A DNA stretch of 40,826 bases from Myxococcales bacterium. Lineage in GTDB: Bacteria; Myxococcota; UBA727; GCA-2721815. A model generated the notes under the pieces. That model saw only the letters and a list, made by a program, of their open reading frames with translations. It made no database searches and had not been told where the DNA came from. Position numbers and translations under genes: made by a program. How positions within the stretch are numbered: position 1 is the stretch's first letter; the number at the start of each line of letters is the position of its first letter. The DNA is taken from the NCBI GenBank assembly GCA_002721815.1, contig PBLQ01000055.1:1-40826 (forward strand), read 5' to 3'. Below, piece after piece: positions 25,606-40,826 of the stretch.

Positions 25606-25961
25606 CTGGCACCTCCTGGTAAGGGGTATCTGCTATGGCCTGCACCGTAAATGCTCAAGGGGTCGGCCACGGACAGGTCTGAATTTTGCTATCCTGTCAC
25701 ATTGGAAACACGTCAAAAGCAGCCTTTAGAAGGCTGTTTTATGCTTGAGAACACATCATTTCCTCGTAAATACAGTAACTTAAAGGTTGTTTGCGCTGTC
25801 GCACCGCCCTGACCTGCCTGCGCCTTTGTCCGAGGATAAAACGCCTTCTCAGCGGGTTCTTTTTTCGAGGTCATAAGGGCGAATTTTGGCCTGCCAGCCT
25901 TGGCCCGCATACCGGTTCAGTTTATCCTTTGGAGGAGTCGTTCAAACGGGGAGAACCAGCC
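25606..25961. other. Divergent intergenic region between purS and the giant lipoprotein
   Basis: These 356 bases hold the purS Shine-Dalgarno at the left edge, a symmetrical hairpin at 25716-25740 and the leader of the plus-strand lipoprotein at the right (GGGGAG about 9 bases before ATG 25962). Promoters for both directions are expected here, but no convincing -35/-10 pair was seen. The plus-strand frame is open back to 25791, but that stretch does not look like protein. Confidence 0.6.
25716..25740. terminator. Symmetrical terminator-like hairpin between divergent genes
   Basis: AAAAGCAGCCTT-tag-AAGGCTGTTTT forms a 7-bp GC-containing stem (25720-25726 with 25730-25736), extended by A/T pairs, with a T run on either strand. 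It would work as a terminator in both directions. As no gene ends here, it may be an attenuator in the leader of the purS operon or an insulator. Confidence 0.55.
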
Positions 25962-28900
25962 ATGCTGAAGACACTATTTCCATTCATTTTCGCACTCCTG
26001 CTCGCGGCTTGTCCGCAAATGCCGCCAGAGCCGCCAGAGCCAGGCCCCGATTCTGAACCCACACAGTCTGATGCTGGAACGACGGAAGGCGCAAGTGACG
26101 GTGCGCCATTAGACGCAGGCAGTGCAGATGGGAGCCCGGATGGAAGTACGGATGTGACCCTTAACGATGCCGGTACAGGCGACGGTATGTCTGATGGCGC
26201 TGTTGTGGATTCGGGCAGCTCAGATGGGAGTTGGGATGGCAATGCTGACGCCAGCCCTGTCGATGCAGGTCATGGGGATGGTTCCACAGACGGCGCTGAG
26301 GATGGGGCGACAATAGACGCAGGGCAAGTCGATGGCACTTCGGATGGATCCGGCCAAGTCACTGCCGATGCAGGTACGGACCATGGGGGCACAGATGGCA
26401 GTCACACCGATGCAGGGCATGAAGCATCACCAAGTACGGATGCCGGATCAACCGAGCCCTCAGGCCCGAACTGGGAGGCTGCCTGCGCTGCGCGAGCCAC
26501 ATTCTTAGCCAATTGTGCATTAAAGCACCAAGTGGATGGGGCTTATGAGACGGCTTACAACCAATGCCTCACCGAACGGTCTAATTTTTGTTCGGCCGAA
26601 GAGGAACAAAAACTGTACGACGCCCTCACCTGTTTGACGGCGCTCACCATTCCTACCGACATCGCCGCGTGCCACAATACCGGCTTTATTGAAAGTGCAC
26701 GCGTTGAGTGTCTCATTCCCGGTGTTGACCGCGGCTGTTACGAACTGAATGTGCAAACCGACTGTGCAGATGGTGTGGGTTCTTTTTCTGAAGACGAAAA
26801 ATGTGATTTTTTCAACCATTGTGCCGATGGTACCGATGAACAAAACTGCCCCTGGTATTGCGTAGGTGCGGATTCCTACATTCCTTTGCAAGCCTCTGAT
26901 TTTTGCGATGGTCAGTTTGAAACCTGCCCAGACGCGTACGACGAAAACTGTGTCCAGGTCGATGAGAACTGCAGCATTCATCGAACGCTTGCCTGCGACC
27001 AACACGTTAACTGTGAAGGCGGTGGAGACGAATTCACCACCGGCACCAGTGGATTCCAACTTCAATGTATTTCAGGCCCCAACGGTCAGTGCGCCGAAGG
27101 ATTCCATCGGGCTGCTGCATGCGATGACGTGGATGACTGCGCCGATGCGTACGATGAGGATGCATGTACCCTGACCACTGGAAATTGCCGCATTCACCCC
27201 GATTTCATTTGCGATGGGGTGGCGGACTGTGACTCAGGTGAAGACGAACAAGGCTGCAATGGCCTGTGCGATGCTGACACCTCTTGCGTGCAAGACTGCA
27301 ACGGCGATTGGGGCGGTGACGCGGCCTTAGACAGCTGCGACGTGTGCGACAATGACAGCACCAATGACAACACCACATGCACCCAAGACTGTGAAGGCAC
27401 CTGGGGTGGCGCTGCCACAGCGGACTGTAACGGTGATTGCAATGGCACCGCCTTTTTAGATGAATGTGGCGCCTGTGTTGGCGGCAACACTGACGATGAA
27501 GCCTGCGAACCGGCCTTACCAGACGCTGGGACAACCGATGAGGACAGCAACGCCACGGGTGGAAACGATGCGGGCCACCAACAGCCCAGTGGCGATCTAT
27601 GTTCTTCCATGGCCCAACCGGACACCCCCATGGATTGTTTGCTCGAATGTCGTGACTTGCAATGGGTCGAAAACCACTTGGATTTCGATGGCGGCCCTGC
27701 AGATGCAGAACCCTCAGAAGGCGAACCCTCTGGCTACTTCGATTGGGTCGGCAATGGTCAGTTTATCACCTACGGTGAGATGTGTGACGGCACCAACGAT
27801 TGTGACTCTGATGACAATTACGACGAAGATGCTTTCTGCCGGGCGCTCTTCCGATGTGAAAATGATGAACAACTCATCGCTATAGAGATGGCCTGCAACG
27901 GCAACGACGATTGCAATGATGGCAGCGATGAAAACAACTGCCAAGAAGTGGGCGAAGAGAACTGTGTCCTTCCCGAATCCCTCATTTGTGACGGCAATTA
28001 CAACTGCGATGATGGGGCAGACGAACAACTGTGCGCCGTTGGTGAGATGACCGATATCGGGCCGGCAACCGCAAACACGGTTATCATCTCAAAGAGTGAT
28101 GTTAATGACGGGGCGCCCATGGTGTGGGATCTGGTCAACGTTGAAACCGATGATGAACTGGCATTAATATTCAGGTGGGTCCTTGGCGAGAACAATTATC
28201 AAATGCTCTCATTGCAGATTCCCGATGGGGCCGAGGCTGGCCTCAACGGTTTCTTCGGGCAAATGGCCTTCGTTCACAGCGATAACGATGAACCCACGAC
28301 TGCATGGGCGCTGGATACCAATTGCGCGATAAATCTTAGCGCCCCCTACCCGGCGGACCCGCAACCCGCGCTTTTCTCTGGTTACACCAACGAGTGCGAG
28401 ATGTATGCCAACTACGGTGATGATGCGCCTCTCTTCACCATGACGATATCATTCACATGGGAGACCTCGTTCGGTGCTGATTTTGAATGTGCCGATGGCA
28501 GCGGCACCATCCCGATCGAAGAGGTCTGCAATTTCGAAGAACAATGTGCCGACGGCAGCGATGAATCTGGTGATTGCCCAATCATCTGCCAGTGGATCGA
28601 CGATGAAGAGCCACAACCTGCAGATTTTTCACCGAACGAAATTGAGCGTTCGAACATGTGTGATGGGATTGCTGATTGCACCACCGGTTTTGACGAACAT
28701 CCATGGATTTGTGCATCGAATTTCAGATGCGACGATGGCGCTCGCCTGCTCCACAGCGATGGTATGTGCAATGGCATCATGGACTGCACCGATGGAAGTG
28801 ATGAAGAAGCTTGTGAGGAGCGCGGCGATGAATGTACGATCCCTGCTTCACGAATTTGCGATGGGGTTTACAACTGTTACCAAGGCCAAGATGAAACCCT

Positions 28901-31397
28901 GTGCACGCCCCCACCCGAGTTTACGGACATCGGGTATCCCGCCGACCTTGATCGAATGACCATCTCCATTGAGGGCTGCACGGAAACCTGGACCTTACTG
29001 GCCCCTGAGTTTGATGATTCAGGCGTTCGCCTCGTCTATTGGAATGAAATGAATGCTGGGGCCTGTGAACCCTACAGCTCTGGCTATGCAGCAAGCATCT
29101 ACATCCCTTATGAAACTGAATCGGGACTGAGGTCCTTACACGCTGCAACTGGCGCAGGCTTGGCCATCACCCAGCTTAGCAGCTCAACCGCTTACGTGGC
29201 CTTTGATGAAAGCTGCTATGCGGAATTCACCGGCGAATTTCCCACTGAGACAGAAGATCAAGAGTTCAGTGGGTTTTCTTCACCTTGTGCTCTTGCAGGC
29301 ACCTTCGAAGGTCAACCCGATGACGCCATAACCCCACTAAATGTTCAAGTTTCGTTCCGCTGGCAAGAAACGGCGGGGCCCAAATTCACGTGTGATGATG
29401 GCCAAACCATCCCCGAGGCTTCACATTGCGATGGTTACGCTGATTGCGCCGATTGGTCCGATGAGCTCAGTTGCCCAGGCAGTTTCTCATGTGACGATGG
29501 CCAATTTATTCCCGATGACTACGTTTGTGATGGCTCGCAGGAATGTGACAATGGTGCTGATGAACATGACAGTTGTCCCGTTTTCACCTGCGAAAACGGT
29601 CAAACCATTCCCGCCCAACATGAATGTGACTTTGGTGCCGATTGCGAGGATGGATCTGATGAACATGACCAATGCACAAACGGCTTCCAATGTGGCGATG
29701 GCACTAACATCAATCCCGGCTACGTGTGCGATGGCGATGAAGACTGTGATGACGACTCAGATGAAGCGAATTGCCTCGTCTGCGACAATGGTAACTTGAC
29801 GCTGCCGCCACAAGCCGTATGCGACGGTGACTTCGATTGTAACGATGGGGCCGACGAAGAAAACTGTGGCACTGGCAACCTTGGCTGCACCGACCCGGAT
29901 GCCAACAATTACGACGCCTCTGCCGATACGAGTGATGACACCTGCATTTACGACATCCAATTGAGCGTGGACATGAATTGTGCGCCAGATTACGACTTTG
30001 TTGCCGGGGATCAAGTACACGTGGGCAACAACAGCGGGCCCGAATACAGTCATTACCTGACAGATGAAGACGGTGATGGCATTTGGACCGGTACCGCTCA
30101 AGTTAGCCAACGGGCCACTCATTTCAAAATCGCCGTGGCCCGAGACGGTGATGATGCGTATTTGGTGGAAGATTTTGACTCCGATGGCGCCTGCACTGAG
30201 GATTATATCAATTCTGATTTTGGCAGTCTCGGCTTTTGGAGACCAGTCAGTATCACTGGTGCCACCTCTTTCGAGTTTGCCTACGGCCGCTGCGGTACTT
30301 GTGACGACCCACCCACCTGCCCAGACAACAGTGTCGTAGATACCGATACGGACCTTTGCGAATGCATCGCGGGCTACCAATGGAACGGCGACAATACGGC
30401 ATGCGAGCCCAGCAACACCAACGGGTACGGTTGCCTGGACCCCGATGCCACCAATTTTGATGACACCGCTACCACCGCCCATATTTGTATTTACGATGTG
30501 ACCTTTGCGGTGGACATGAGCTGTTCTGGGGTGGATCTTGCAACGGGTGATGCAGTCTTTATCCATACCTACGATGGCAACCTGATCCCGCTCATTGTGG
30601 ATGACACCAACCCTCAACGCTGGACGGGGGGCGGTGCCGTCGAAGTTCCGCAAGAAGGCGGTGCCTTTCAATATCGCGTGGTGGTGGATCGACCTGAACA
30701 GAGCAGTTCCACCTACTACGCTTTCGAAGATTTTAGCGGCGCCTGTACAGAAAATGTTATGCCCGAAGACGTTGATATGGGGTTTTGGCGCACGACAACG
30801 CTAGATGCACCCACGAATCTTGATTTTGCCTTCGGTCGTTGCGACGCCTGCCCTGAGCCACTGTCACATCCATTCTTCACCGAAATCCATTATGACAATG
30901 GTGGCAACGGGGAAACGGATGAAAATGAGTTTATCGAGATCACCGGCCCTGTGGGTACCGATTTATCCCAATACTTCATCGCCTTGGTCAATCAAGATGG
31001 TGTTTTGTACGAATTGTGGCCCTTGGGTGGGGTGATTGAAGACCAATCCAATAACCCTAATCCGCCCCTCAATGGCGCAATTATGGGCGCCTACAAAATA
31101 GACACACCGGGGATTCAAAACGGGCCCAATGATGACTTCGCGCTCATTTACATGATGGACACCGACCAAGAAGAGCTCGTTGAATTCCTCAGCTACGAGG
31201 GTGAGGTCACCGTGGTTGATGCAGGGGCTGACAGCAGTTTACAAAACGAAACGTCGGTGGACATTGACGTTGCCGAGAACAGCAGCACCACGCCCACCCA
31301 ATCTTTACAACTTCACACCATTAACGGTGAAAACATTTGGGTCGGGCCTTTTGAGGCCACGCCCGGGGCGGTGAATCCGGAATTAATATTTCAGTAA
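25962..31397 (+). CDS. Giant modular surface lipoprotein with LDL-receptor class A-like repeats
   Basis: From ATG 25962 (GGGGAG upstream) the product is 1811 residues. The signal sequence ends in the lipobox LLAAC, with the lipidated Cys at residue 17. Order of parts: an Asp/Gly-rich linker (residues 37-167); a Cys-rich region; about 17 LDLa-like calcium-binding modules of the pattern CDGxxDCxDGSDExxC, in groups; two DCNGxWGG motifs; two copies of a roughly 270-residue block of LDLa modules plus a beta domain; two copies of a GCxDPDAxN motif plus a beta domain ending FAFGRCxxC; and a C-terminal lamin-tail-like domain (HPFFTEIHYDNGGNG, ENEFIEITGP). It is probably anchored on the cell surface and stabilised by calcium and disulfides. 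Adhesion or ligand binding is inferred, not shown. The tyrosine phosphatase gene follows after 90 bases. Confidence 0.88.
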   Translation: MLKTLFPFIFALLLAACPQMPPEPPEPGPDSEPTQSDAGTTEGASDGAPLDAGSADGSPDGSTDVTLNDAGTGDGMSDGAVVDSGSSDGSWDGNADASPVDAGHGDGSTDGAEDGATIDAGQVDGTSDGSGQVTADAGTDHGGTDGSHTDAGHEASPSTDAGSTEPSGPNWEAACAARATFLANCALKHQVDGAYETAYNQCLTERSNFCSAEEEQKLYDALTCLTALTIPTDIAACHNTGFIESARVECLIPGVDRGCYELNVQTDCADGVGSFSEDEKCDFFNHCADGTDEQNCPWYCVGADSYIPLQASDFCDGQFETCPDAYDENCVQVDENCSIHRTLACDQHVNCEGGGDEFTTGTSGFQLQCISGPNGQCAEGFHRAAACDDVDDCADAYDEDACTLTTGNCRIHPDFICDGVADCDSGEDEQGCNGLCDADTSCVQDCNGDWGGDAALDSCDVCDNDSTNDNTTCTQDCEGTWGGAATADCNGDCNGTAFLDECGACVGGNTDDEACEPALPDAGTTDEDSNATGGNDAGHQQPSGDLCSSMAQPDTPMDCLLECRDLQWVENHLDFDGGPADAEPSEGEPSGYFDWVGNGQFITYGEMCDGTNDCDSDDNYDEDAFCRALFRCENDEQLIAIEMACNGNDDCNDGSDENNCQEVGEENCVLPESLICDGNYNCDDGADEQLCAVGEMTDIGPATANTVIISKSDVNDGAPMVWDLVNVETDDELALIFRWVLGENNYQMLSLQIPDGAEAGLNGFFGQMAFVHSDNDEPTTAWALDTNCAINLSAPYPADPQPALFSGYTNECEMYANYGDDAPLFTMTISFTWETSFGADFECADGSGTIPIEEVCNFEEQCADGSDESGDCPIICQWIDDEEPQPADFSPNEIERSNMCDGIADCTTGFDEHPWICASNFRCDDGARLLHSDGMCNGIMDCTDGSDEEACEERGDECTIPASRICDGVYNCYQGQDETLCTPPPEFTDIGYPADLDRMTISIEGCTETWTLLAPEFDDSGVRLVYWNEMNAGACEPYSSGYAASIYIPYETESGLRSLHAATGAGLAITQLSSSTAYVAFDESCYAEFTGEFPTETEDQEFSGFSSPCALAGTFEGQPDDAITPLNVQVSFRWQETAGPKFTCDDGQTIPEASHCDGYADCADWSDELSCPGSFSCDDGQFIPDDYVCDGSQECDNGADEHDSCPVFTCENGQTIPAQHECDFGADCEDGSDEHDQCTNGFQCGDGTNINPGYVCDGDEDCDDDSDEANCLVCDNGNLTLPPQAVCDGDFDCNDGADEENCGTGNLGCTDPDANNYDASADTSDDTCIYDIQLSVDMNCAPDYDFVAGDQVHVGNNSGPEYSHYLTDEDGDGIWTGTAQVSQRATHFKIAVARDGDDAYLVEDFDSDGACTEDYINSDFGSLGFWRPVSITGATSFEFAYGRCGTCDDPPTCPDNSVVDTDTDLCECIAGYQWNGDNTACEPSNTNGYGCLDPDATNFDDTATTAHICIYDVTFAVDMSCSGVDLATGDAVFIHTYDGNLIPLIVDDTNPQRWTGGGAVEVPQEGGAFQYRVVVDRPEQSSSTYYAFEDFSGACTENVMPEDVDMGFWRTTTLDAPTNLDFAFGRCDACPEPLSHPFFTEIHYDNGGNGETDENEFIEITGPVGTDLSQYFIALVNQDGVLYELWPLGGVIEDQSNNPNPPLNGAIMGAYKIDTPGIQNGPNDDFALIYMMDTDQEELVEFLSYEGEVTVVDAGADSSLQNETSVDIDVAENSSTTPTQSLQLHTINGENIWVGPFEATPGAVNPELIFQ
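26070..26462 (+). repeat. Coding repeat: DAGxxDGxxDG units
   Basis: About nine imperfect units of 10-18 residues begin with DAG or DSG and usually contain two further DG pairs, covering residues 37-167 of the giant lipoprotein. The unit is highly acidic and could bind calcium or simply act as an extended stalk holding the domains off the membrane. A short echo (DAGTTDEDSNATGGNDAGHQQ) occurs again at about 27523-27585 between domain groups. Confidence 0.8.
27640..29380 (+). repeat. Internal duplication: LDLa modules plus beta domain, two copies
   Basis: Copy A (about 27640-28475) and copy B (about 28585-29375) share the same order: a Cys-containing opener, MCDGxxDC, an FRCxDxxxL segment, MCNG/ACNG LDLa, an ICDGxYNC LDLa, TDIGxxA, then a beta domain ending FSGYxxxC or FSGFxxxC and SFTWET or SFRWQET. 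The copies have diverged to roughly one third to one half identity by eye, so the duplication is old. Confidence 0.75.
29881..30850 (+). repeat. Internal duplication: GCxDPDAxN plus beta domain, two copies
   Basis: Copy 1 (about 29881-30302) and copy 2 (about 30431-30852) each start with GCTDPDANNYD or GCLDPDATNFD and ICIYD/TCIYD. Each continues with a segment like VDMxC and an EDF...ACTEN/ACTED stretch, and ends GFWRxxxxxxxTxxxFAFGRC or FAYGRC. The GCxDPxAxNY motif is a known short calcium-binding-like repeat in secreted bacterial proteins. Confidence 0.75.
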
Positions 31398-38661: not shown

Positions 38662-39174
38662 ATGACCGATCTACTGCAACATGAATTGCAAAACCCCCAT
38701 GGGGAAAATCTAACACTCACTGATATTGTGGGCGATCAACCTACCCTCTTTGTTTTACTCAGGCACTTCGGTTGAATTTTCTGTCGGGAGCAGGCTGTTT
38801 CCTTTGAAAAACGATTGGCCGATATCAGGCCTCACGCCCAACTTGTGTTTGTCGGGAACGGCCTGCCAGCCATGGCCGAAGATTTTATCGAGCAGTTCAA
38901 CATTCGCTCTCCCGTTTATGTGGATCCGGCACGCATTCTTTATAAAGCCTTGGGGTTCAATGCGAGTAAAATGAAAATGCTCAGCCCGAGCATGGTGCTT
39001 TCCGGGATGAAAGCCGCCAAAAAAGGTTTTATCCAAGGCAAGCTTCAAGGCGACCCGTGGCAGCTGGGAGGGGTTGTCTTATTACACCCTTCCGGGGAAA
39101 TACCTTACGTGTACCGCAGTGCCTTTGCAGGCGATCACCCCGACGTGGATGATGTCATCGCACGTCTTGTTTGA
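38662..39174 (+). CDS. Selenocysteine-containing peroxiredoxin-like protein (SelL/AhpC-TSA_2 type)
   Basis: A 170-residue thioredoxin-fold redox protein with a UGA at codon 38 (38773-38775). The frame is open from ATG 38662 through the UGA to the TAG-proximal TGA stop at 39174. Around it the protein reads TLFVLLRHFG-U-IFCREQ. Relatives have Cys in that place (RHFGCxFCRE), so UxxC replaces CxxC. Downstream parts QLVFVGNG, VYVDPARILYKALGF, GDPWQLGGVVLLHPSGEIPYVYRS and AGDHPDVDD match the peroxiredoxin-like PF13911 (PRXL2/SelU/SelL-related) family. A SECIS-like hairpin follows the UGA. It probably reduces peroxides or disulfides; the electron donor is unknown. The Shine-Dalgarno is weak and distant (AAAGG). 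The stop is 2 bases from the convergent membrane gene. Confidence 0.9.
38777..38810 (+). promoter_or_regulatory. Bacterial SECIS element
   Basis: Directly after the UGA, TTTTC (38777-38781) pairs with GAAAA (38806-38810). Above a small internal loop, GGGAGC (38786-38791) pairs with GTTTCC (38797-38802, two G-U pairs), closing the loop AGGCT. The loop GG lies 18-19 bases after the UGA. From memory, E. coli fdhF has GCAGGTCTGC with its GG at 19-20, so both shape and distance agree with SelB recognition. Confidence 0.82.
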
Positions 39175-39176
39175 AC

Positions 39177-40826
39177 CTAGAAACGAACTTTTTGAATGAG
39201 AGAAAACTCATCATCTGAGAGCGCGTAAGGGTCTTCCTCCGCTTCTTTCGGCAAATAAAAACGTCGGCTGTCCCCTTCACGTGGCTCAAAGTTAGGAAAA
39301 GCCCGTTCGATGGTGTCGGTGTTCCATTGATCATCGCGCCCCCAAATCCAAATTTTAGGCGAGCGTAAAAAGGGGCCGTTTTGAACCAAGTCGTGCTTTC
39401 GAAATTGTATGGGGTGGGTGTGGTCCACAAAATTGAGTTCCAAGTCGTCATTGGGTTCAGTGGCTGGCCTGATGCTGAGTTCTTGGGTCATGAGATCTTC
39501 GATTTGAACCATGCGCAATGGGACGAAGAATACCGCCCCTAAAATCACGCCCAACATGATCTTACGCGGCCAAACCCAGCCGTCACCGGCTTCGTTTTTA
39601 AAGTGCGCCATGGCGGCAGCACCGAGAATCACCAAAGAAACCCAACTGCCCTCGAAATAACGATAGCCCCAACCATGTCCGCTGTCGGTGTGTATCAAAA
39701 AGTAGCCGACGTACATGAGCAAGGCGCTGTACCCAAACATCCGCAACGGTGACCCTTTGGGCGACCGCCAAAATCCCCACCACGCCAGCAACCCTAACCC
39801 TGGCATGGCCCAAACCCAAAGTTTGAAAAGAGCGATAATCCGCGCCACGGGCCGCAGGCTCCAATCGAGCTCTGAGCGATAATTGAAAAGCATGGACACC
39901 AAATTGTCTGCTGGGTTCCCCTGATGATCAGGCGCTCCCAAGTCGAACATCCACATGGCCCACCCAAAGCCCACGAGCAAAACGATGGGCAAATAACTGA
40001 GCACGAGGCAAGTGACTTTGGCAAAGCCTTTCTCTTGTCGGAGCAACCAAAAGAACCACGGAATGGCAAACAACGCATGGGGCATGGGTTGGTGTTGAAC
40101 GATGGCCATGGAGCCCAGGATACCGGCCAAAATGACCCGCAGGAAAGTGGGCTTTAAAAGCAATGCCACAAAGCCCAGGGAGCTGAACAAATAAAAGGTG
40201 TTGGGGTACATGGAAATGGCATTGACCAAGAAGTTGGGTGACACGATGAAAAATAAAACGGCCCAAGAGGCAGCAAAAGATTGACGTCCCAACAACTCAC
40301 GACACACATATTTGGCCAAATATAGGCATCCCACGGCGAGCGACACATTGAGCATCCACGGCACACCGAGCAATGTAAATGGCGTTCTCAACAACGCATT
40401 GCCTGGCCAGTAACGACAAAAGATATCGCCCGACTCGAACATCACAAAAAAGTGGTTGTGATACACCGGCGGCAACAACAAAAATCGAATATTGTAGGGC
40501 CAATTGCCCATCATCTGCCCTTCGGCAAAGATTTGACTTTGAAAGTCAAAGCAATATTCGTCGATGATGTAGGGCCGGCCCTTGTAGACCAAAAAATGAC
40601 ACACCACCAACACCACGCCCAACACCAATGCGGGCATCCAGGTCTTCTCGGCCCATTTTAAAATGGTTTCTGGCTTTCTCACATCCACAAACAAGAGCAG
40701 TAAGAAAAACCCAACAAATCCAATCAAATGCCAAAAATCATGGTCGGTGTATTGGTCGTGATACAGGCTGTTGAGGTTCCAATAGTAGCGCATGTAAATG
40801 CACAAACCCAACCCCACCAGGGTGAA
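39177..40826 (-). CDS. Polytopic membrane glycosyltransferase-like protein (GT-C/GT39 type), 5' end cut off
   Basis: At least 549 residues, open to the window edge, so the true start lies outside; the first visible residues are FTLVGLGLCIYMRYYWN. There are about 10 transmembrane helices, then a C-terminal soluble part of about 90 residues. After the second or third visible helix comes GRPYIIDEYCFDFQSQIFAEG; a D-E pair in this first external loop is the catalytic hallmark of GT-C dolichyl/undecaprenyl-phosphate-sugar transferases (ArnT, PMT). Other family-like points are FCRYWPGNALLRTPF and SPNFLVNAISMYPNTFYLF. It probably glycosylates lipid or protein at the membrane outer face, but the donor and acceptor are unknown. 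Confidence 0.75.
   Translation of the reverse strand, partial: FTLVGLGLCIYMRYYWNLNSLYHDQYTDHDFWHLIGFVGFFLLLLFVDVRKPETILKWAEKTWMPALVLGVVLVVCHFLVYKGRPYIIDEYCFDFQSQIFAEGQMMGNWPYNIRFLLLPPVYHNHFFVMFESGDIFCRYWPGNALLRTPFTLLGVPWMLNVSLAVGCLYLAKYVCRELLGRQSFAASWAVLFFIVSPNFLVNAISMYPNTFYLFSSLGFVALLLKPTFLRVILAGILGSMAIVQHQPMPHALFAIPWFFWLLRQEKGFAKVTCLVLSYLPIVLLVGFGWAMWMFDLGAPDHQGNPADNLVSMLFNYRSELDWSLRPVARIIALFKLWVWAMPGLGLLAWWGFWRSPKGSPLRMFGYSALLMYVGYFLIHTDSGHGWGYRYFEGSWVSLVILGAAAMAHFKNEAGDGWVWPRKIMLGVILGAVFFVPLRMVQIEDLMTQELSIRPATEPNDDLELNFVDHTHPIQFRKHDLVQNGPFLRSPKIWIWGRDDQWNTDTIERAFPNFEPREGDSRRFYLPKEAEEDPYALSDDEFSLIQKVRF

Follow-up and report, generated by a model that had tools for sequence, protein, structure and literature searches.

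A probable bacterial selenoprotein of the SelL-related, PRXL2-like redox family with a UxxC active site

We identified a gene that appears to be broken by an in-frame stop codon but is almost certainly intact (probability of about 95%) in a Myxococcales bacterium contig of 40,826 nucleotides, the whole of which is referred to here as the window. The gene is predicted to encode a peroxiredoxin-like selenoprotein with selenocysteine (Sec) at active-site position 38 (Table 1). A sequence-only reading of the window had proposed a true selenoprotein at this place, and that proposal is now strongly supported by the conservation of the UGA in relatives, the presence of selA, selB, selC, and selD, and purifying selection on the codons 3' of the UGA. 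Insertion of Sec in vivo, which we infer from the reading frame, the conserved UGA, the machinery, the purifying selection, and the family, is likewise strongly supported.

Table 1. Positions of the predicted selenoprotein gene, its features, and the Sec machinery genes (window coordinates unless a contig or locus is named)
Feature	Position	Strand	Details
Predicted selenoprotein gene, SelL-related/PRXL2-like redox protein	38662..39174	+	170 aa, Sec at position 38
TGA codon predicted to be read as Sec (U38), replacing the catalytic Cys of CxxC	38773..38775	+	Alignment with homologs
TGT, Cys41, second residue of UxxC and presumed resolving Cys	38782..38784	+	Invariant in 55-sequence alignment
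Candidate SECIS GGGAGCA-GGC-UGUUUCC	38786..38802 (+14..+30)	+	17 nt, 7 bp, loop GGC
119-aa fragment with TTG start, possible gene-caller output	38815..39174	+	Sole standard ORF in frame
Terminal TGA, followed two codons on by an in-frame TAG (TGA ACC TAG)	39172..39180	+	Sequence
tRNA-Sec (selC)	C51:44825-44919		71.7 bits versus gathering score of 47; ARAGORN SeC, anticodon tca
selA	L010:8937-10256		Directly 3' of tRNA-Sec; TIGR00474, 426 bits, over cutoff
selB	L010:10267-12075	-	Convergent with selA; TIGR00475, 273 bits, over cutoff
selD	Contig C14		419 bits, without internal stop

Reading frame, family, and predicted chemistry

The frame runs on the plus strand from an ATG to the terminal TGA (39172-39174), and its lone internal TGA, at residue 38 of 170, lies in the context LLRHFG-U-IFCREQ. 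The observations that had been made from the letters alone hold at each point: a single frame carries a single TGA, at 38773-38775; the TGA falls at the first Cys of the motif RHFGCxFCRE, where the aligned codon is TGC or TGT in 79 of 84 homologous matches; and standard ORF calling leaves only the 119-residue fragment in this frame. Apart from the TGA, no lesion was found in the gene, and the family motifs are kept 3' of it in the 55-sequence alignment.

Family models and searches were run with Cys written for Sec38. The protein matched the Pfam family AhpC-TSA_2 (PF13911) at 60 bits against a cutoff of 27 and AhpC-TSA (PF00578) weakly, at 27.7 bits. The NCBIfam model NF040769 (“SelL-related redox protein”) matched over nearly the whole length at 128.4 bits against a curated cutoff of 120, just below which two of four Sec relatives fall (115.2 and 118.9). 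The earlier assignment to SelL/PRXL2-like proteins and PF13911 is upheld by these scores, except that the UxxU of SelL proper is absent. A single-sequence search of solved structures gave only two entries, both of human prostamide/PGF synthase (PGFS; wild type, E value of 9e-10), and a profile search again had human PGFS as its top match (3e-23), with U38 aligned to the first Cys of RRFGCVVC. The AlphaFold2 model (mean pLDDT of 94.4, pTM of 0.90) is thioredoxin-like, and Foldseek placed human PGFS at the top, followed by PrxQ/Bcp peroxiredoxins.

On the basis of family, fold, and an invariant Cys41, we propose that Sec38 is the attacking nucleophile, with Cys41 in the resolving role. In the model, Sec38 would lie at the N terminus of the first long helix (residues 39 to 50), with Cys41 one turn on. 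Sec38 would attack a peroxide, or another oxidized small molecule or disulfide, to give a selenenic acid or a mixed selenyl-sulfide; Cys41 would then resolve the oxidized Sec38 through an intramolecular Se-S bond, which a reductant, presumably of the thioredoxin type, would reset. The product probably acts as a Sec-containing peroxidase or as a disulfide reductase, its substrate being suggested by fold and motif.

Because PRXL2B and the PrxQ/Bcp proteins are the nearest folds, peroxidase-type activity would be our first choice, with a disulfide or endoperoxide reductase as a serious alternative. The protein might be a true selenoprotein and yet act as a ResA/TlpA-like thiol-disulfide oxidoreductase or a PRXL2B-like endoperoxide reductase rather than as a peroxidase, a reading that is compatible with Sec at position 38 and that we consider possible, at somewhat less than even odds. 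UxxC is a disulfide oxidoreductase motif, ResA structures turn up in the fold and profile searches, and the top match is the human prostamide/PGF synthase. However, PrxQ/Bcp peroxidases stand above ResA in both the fold search and the profile search, a signal peptide is not evident in the protein sequence, and one neighbor encodes a MOSC protein and the other a protein that matched no Pfam family, with no cytochrome maturation genes seen adjoining. Elsewhere in the window, a gene at 25791-31397 (plus strand) encodes an acidic, Cys-rich protein of 1,868 aa with many repeats like LDL-receptor class A modules (CDGxxDCxDGSDE), which are unusual for a bacterium.

Conservation of the TGA in relatives

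A first scan for homologs, in bacterial and archaeal genomes taken one per species, yielded 80 loci and, with the window included, 84 aligned matches. Beside the 79 Cys codons, five matches carry TGA: the window gene, one locus from Desulfobacteraceae (L024), and three from Chloroflexota (L029, L043, and L045). In each of these three Chloroflexota genomes, a Cys paralog adjoins the Sec paralog. A search of 195 genomes from the window's own phylum found TGA in 22 of the 24 homologs covering the site, window included; the other two are L102, which has TGC, and L115 (genome G056, codon near locus position 1890), in which the U-x-x stretch is absent, leaving RHFG-C-REQ. Over all comparisons, the codon of U38 encodes Cys in the 79 homologs of the first search and is TGA in 25 besides the window gene, Cys being the prevailing state outside the phylum. 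The gene was not found in other genomes of the window's own class, and no relatives were found in viral contigs.

The tree of these sequences requires Sec and Cys to have been exchanged at least seven times, three of these exchanges being forced by well-supported branches, and does not settle which state is older; loci labeled Myxococcota fall among the sequences of the window's phylum, which is therefore probably Myxococcota. Purifying selection acts on the coding sequence 3' of the TGA: across eight pairs of closely related homologs, dN/dS was 0.10 to 0.32 there and 0.04 to 0.31 upstream of the TGA.

Since TGA occupies this codon in a further 21 genomes of the phylum and at four loci outside it, the TGA of the window gene is not there by chance, and its conservation in relatives indicates that it is not a read error. 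A recent pseudogene, or a sequencing or assembly error in a Cys-encoding gene, would take a single base change from TGC or TGT, and the window gene is without a close relative for comparison; nevertheless, independent errors at the same codon in so many genomes and loci are not credible, and the lack of a second lesion, the motifs kept 3' of the TGA, the low dN/dS of the relatives there, and the Sec machinery of the same genome make such a defect very improbable. For the family as a whole, we reject it on the shared TGA, the purifying selection, and the machinery.

Selenocysteine machinery and hairpins downstream of the UGA

The source genome comprises 4.60 Mb in 74 contigs and is 98% complete. 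A search of it for selA, selB, selC, and selD, suggested as a check by the sequence-only reading, found all four (Table 1). Across the phylum, SelB is present in 147 of the 195 genomes and in 21 of the 22 that carry the TGA, the 22nd being 61% complete and having a tRNA-Sec. The last winged-helix domain of the SelB encoded in the source genome scores 51 bits, compared with about 60 to 80 in most of the phylum, and this low score may go with SECIS candidates lying nearer the UGA. Searches of this genome for Fdh-alpha and SelW (PF10262) did not find a Sec form of either. We propose that SelB and Sec-tRNA(Sec), steered by a short mRNA hairpin just 3' of the UGA, would place Sec at position 38.

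Three further thioredoxin-fold genes of this genome contain an in-frame TGA, with a hairpin 3' of the UGA in each. The first (L128:1252-1893, minus strand; G000:C45 near 84092) encodes a predicted lipoprotein peroxiredoxin, Bcp/PrxQ-like, whose lone in-frame TGA is at the likely position of the peroxidatic Cys (FYPLANTSG-U-TTQ) and is followed by a strong hairpin, GGUCUCGG-GUU-CCGAGAUC, at +14..+30 (loop GUU, P = 0.0045), the same offset as that of the window hairpin. The second (L129:1032-1751, plus strand; G000:C58 near 7418) encodes a predicted exported ResA/TlpA-like protein with the TGA in FW-U-GSC; its hairpin, at +14..+30 (loop GGC, P = 0.0045), has both the offset and the loop of the window hairpin. 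The third (L130:1031-1804, plus strand; G000:C21 near 55938) encodes a predicted exported protein with TSP3 repeats and a thioredoxin-like part, its TGA in AAW-U-QGC, and has a 17-nt hairpin, GGAGGUG-GGU-CGCCUCC, at +18..+34 (loop GGU).

Two other readings, general use of UGA as a sense codon (as in table 4) and near-cognate read-through, have a negligible probability and are rejected: the inserted residue is not visible from sequence, but the gene's own terminator is TGA, long genes of the window show no internal stop under table 11, TGA stands for Cys rather than Trp and occupies the redox Cys site of four genes, and a dedicated set of tRNA-Sec, SelA, SelB, and SelD is present.

By the rules quoted in PMC13188914, a bacterial SECIS has a loop of 3 to 9 nt, a stem of 4 to 16 bp, a G within the first two loop positions, and its loop 16 to 37 nt from the UGA. 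The window hairpin agrees with all four of these rules; its loop lies 17 nt past the UGA and its size equals that of the minimal bacterial upper stem-loop, 17 nt (PMC11431864). Its place is similar to that of the E. coli fdhF SECIS, the loop of which also begins with GG. Against synonymous recodings, the hairpin has a P value of about 0.003 to 0.007 at its fixed place but of 0.2 when all places are scanned. Folding of stretches of 41 to 81 nt around or after the UGA was not significant against dinucleotide shuffles (z of −0.85 to +0.39), and an Rfam scan of the gene gave nothing relevant. The hairpins at the same offset in the first two of the other TGA-containing genes provide independent support, and we regard the window hairpin as a weak SECIS candidate.

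In numbering from the U of UGA, the relatives have an approximately 8-bp hairpin at +22..+40, in which G30 is nearly invariant and U32 invariant. Over 25 sequences, two-sided changes occur in 20 cells compared with 8.5 after shuffling, and the covariation score was reached by none of the shuffles; a control slid by −1 scored about equally high, partly because some of the stems sit one base off, the register being inexact in some sequences. Compared with synonymous recodings, individual stems stand out only mildly, but the deviation has the same sign in all 26 TGA genes (mean z of −1.2). The Cys form L102 is without this hairpin (−2.5 kcal/mol versus mostly −10 to −17 kcal/mol in the TGA forms). 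L115, which has no UGA, keeps a strong hairpin where a SECIS is expected and likely represents loss of Sec through a 9-nt deletion, with the hairpin as a SECIS relic. The +22..+40 register does not form in the window gene, and the window loop is without the GU that is conserved in the loops of the relatives.

Known relatives and implications

SelL proteins are Prx-like and occur in prokaryotes and eukaryotes (PMC2398784), with aquatic members among the latter (PMC2398784, PMC3316567). The SelL proteins of eukaryotes carry two Sec residues (PMC3473315, PMC3316567), which lie two residues apart (PMC3316567). The window protein is Prx-like as SelL is, but it has UxxC and one Sec, position 41 being Cys (TGT), whereas SelL has UxxU. 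Given the two Sec residues of eukaryotic SelL, the SelU/PRXL2 proteins are the closest eukaryotic relatives with Sec; Sec forms of SelU1 to SelU3 occur in animals (PMC3473315). SelU3, which is PRXL2B or prostamide/PGF synthase, shares fold and motif with the window protein, and human PGFS is about 19 to 24% identical to it in structural alignment. This likeness is one of predicted fold and sequence match, the prostamide H2/PGH2 reductase activity being that of PRXL2B. In contrast to the animal SelU/PRXL2 proteins, the one described here is bacterial, with its SECIS candidate within the coding region.

Among bacterial proteins, the AhpC/TSA selenoprotein of an Olavius symbiont (pfam13911/cd02970) belongs to the same Pfam family but has UxxS rather than UxxC, as listed in PMC9312934 and PMC13188914. 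The known bacterial UxxC thioredoxin-like selenoprotein family is alike in motif and fold, and the much higher score for PF13911 than for PF00578 sets the window protein off from it. In a term search of the main text and tables of two prokaryotic catalogs (PMC9312934, PMC13188914), the only Sec form of PF13911/cd02970 found was UxxS; the UxxC form may have been entered under a different name, such as with the Prx-like UxxC proteins of pfam00578. Kinship with SelL has already been recognized, as the NCBI family name “SelL-related” attests. Sec in the animal SelU/PRXL2 lineage and the two-Sec SelL being already known, the window gene would be a further, well-supported bacterial case. More tentatively, and with odds somewhat against it, the UxxC form of PF13911/SelL-related proteins might constitute an uncataloged bacterial selenoprotein family for which Sec rather than Cys is usual in a single phylum, probably Myxococcota. 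Such a family would be the bacterial equivalent of animal SelU3, with Sec at the corresponding catalytic position, and its SECIS would here have shifted to a shorter, closer hairpin alongside a diverged SelB.

A 119-residue fragment from standard gene callers would omit the active site of this protein, so that the catalytic residue would be overlooked, and the same would hold for relatives annotated as fragments. The Sec forms, the Cys form without the hairpin, and the hairpin-bearing form without the UGA make up a natural series on the gain and loss of Sec and SECIS, and the window gene links the animal SelU/PRXL2B enzymes with their predicted bacterial Sec relatives.
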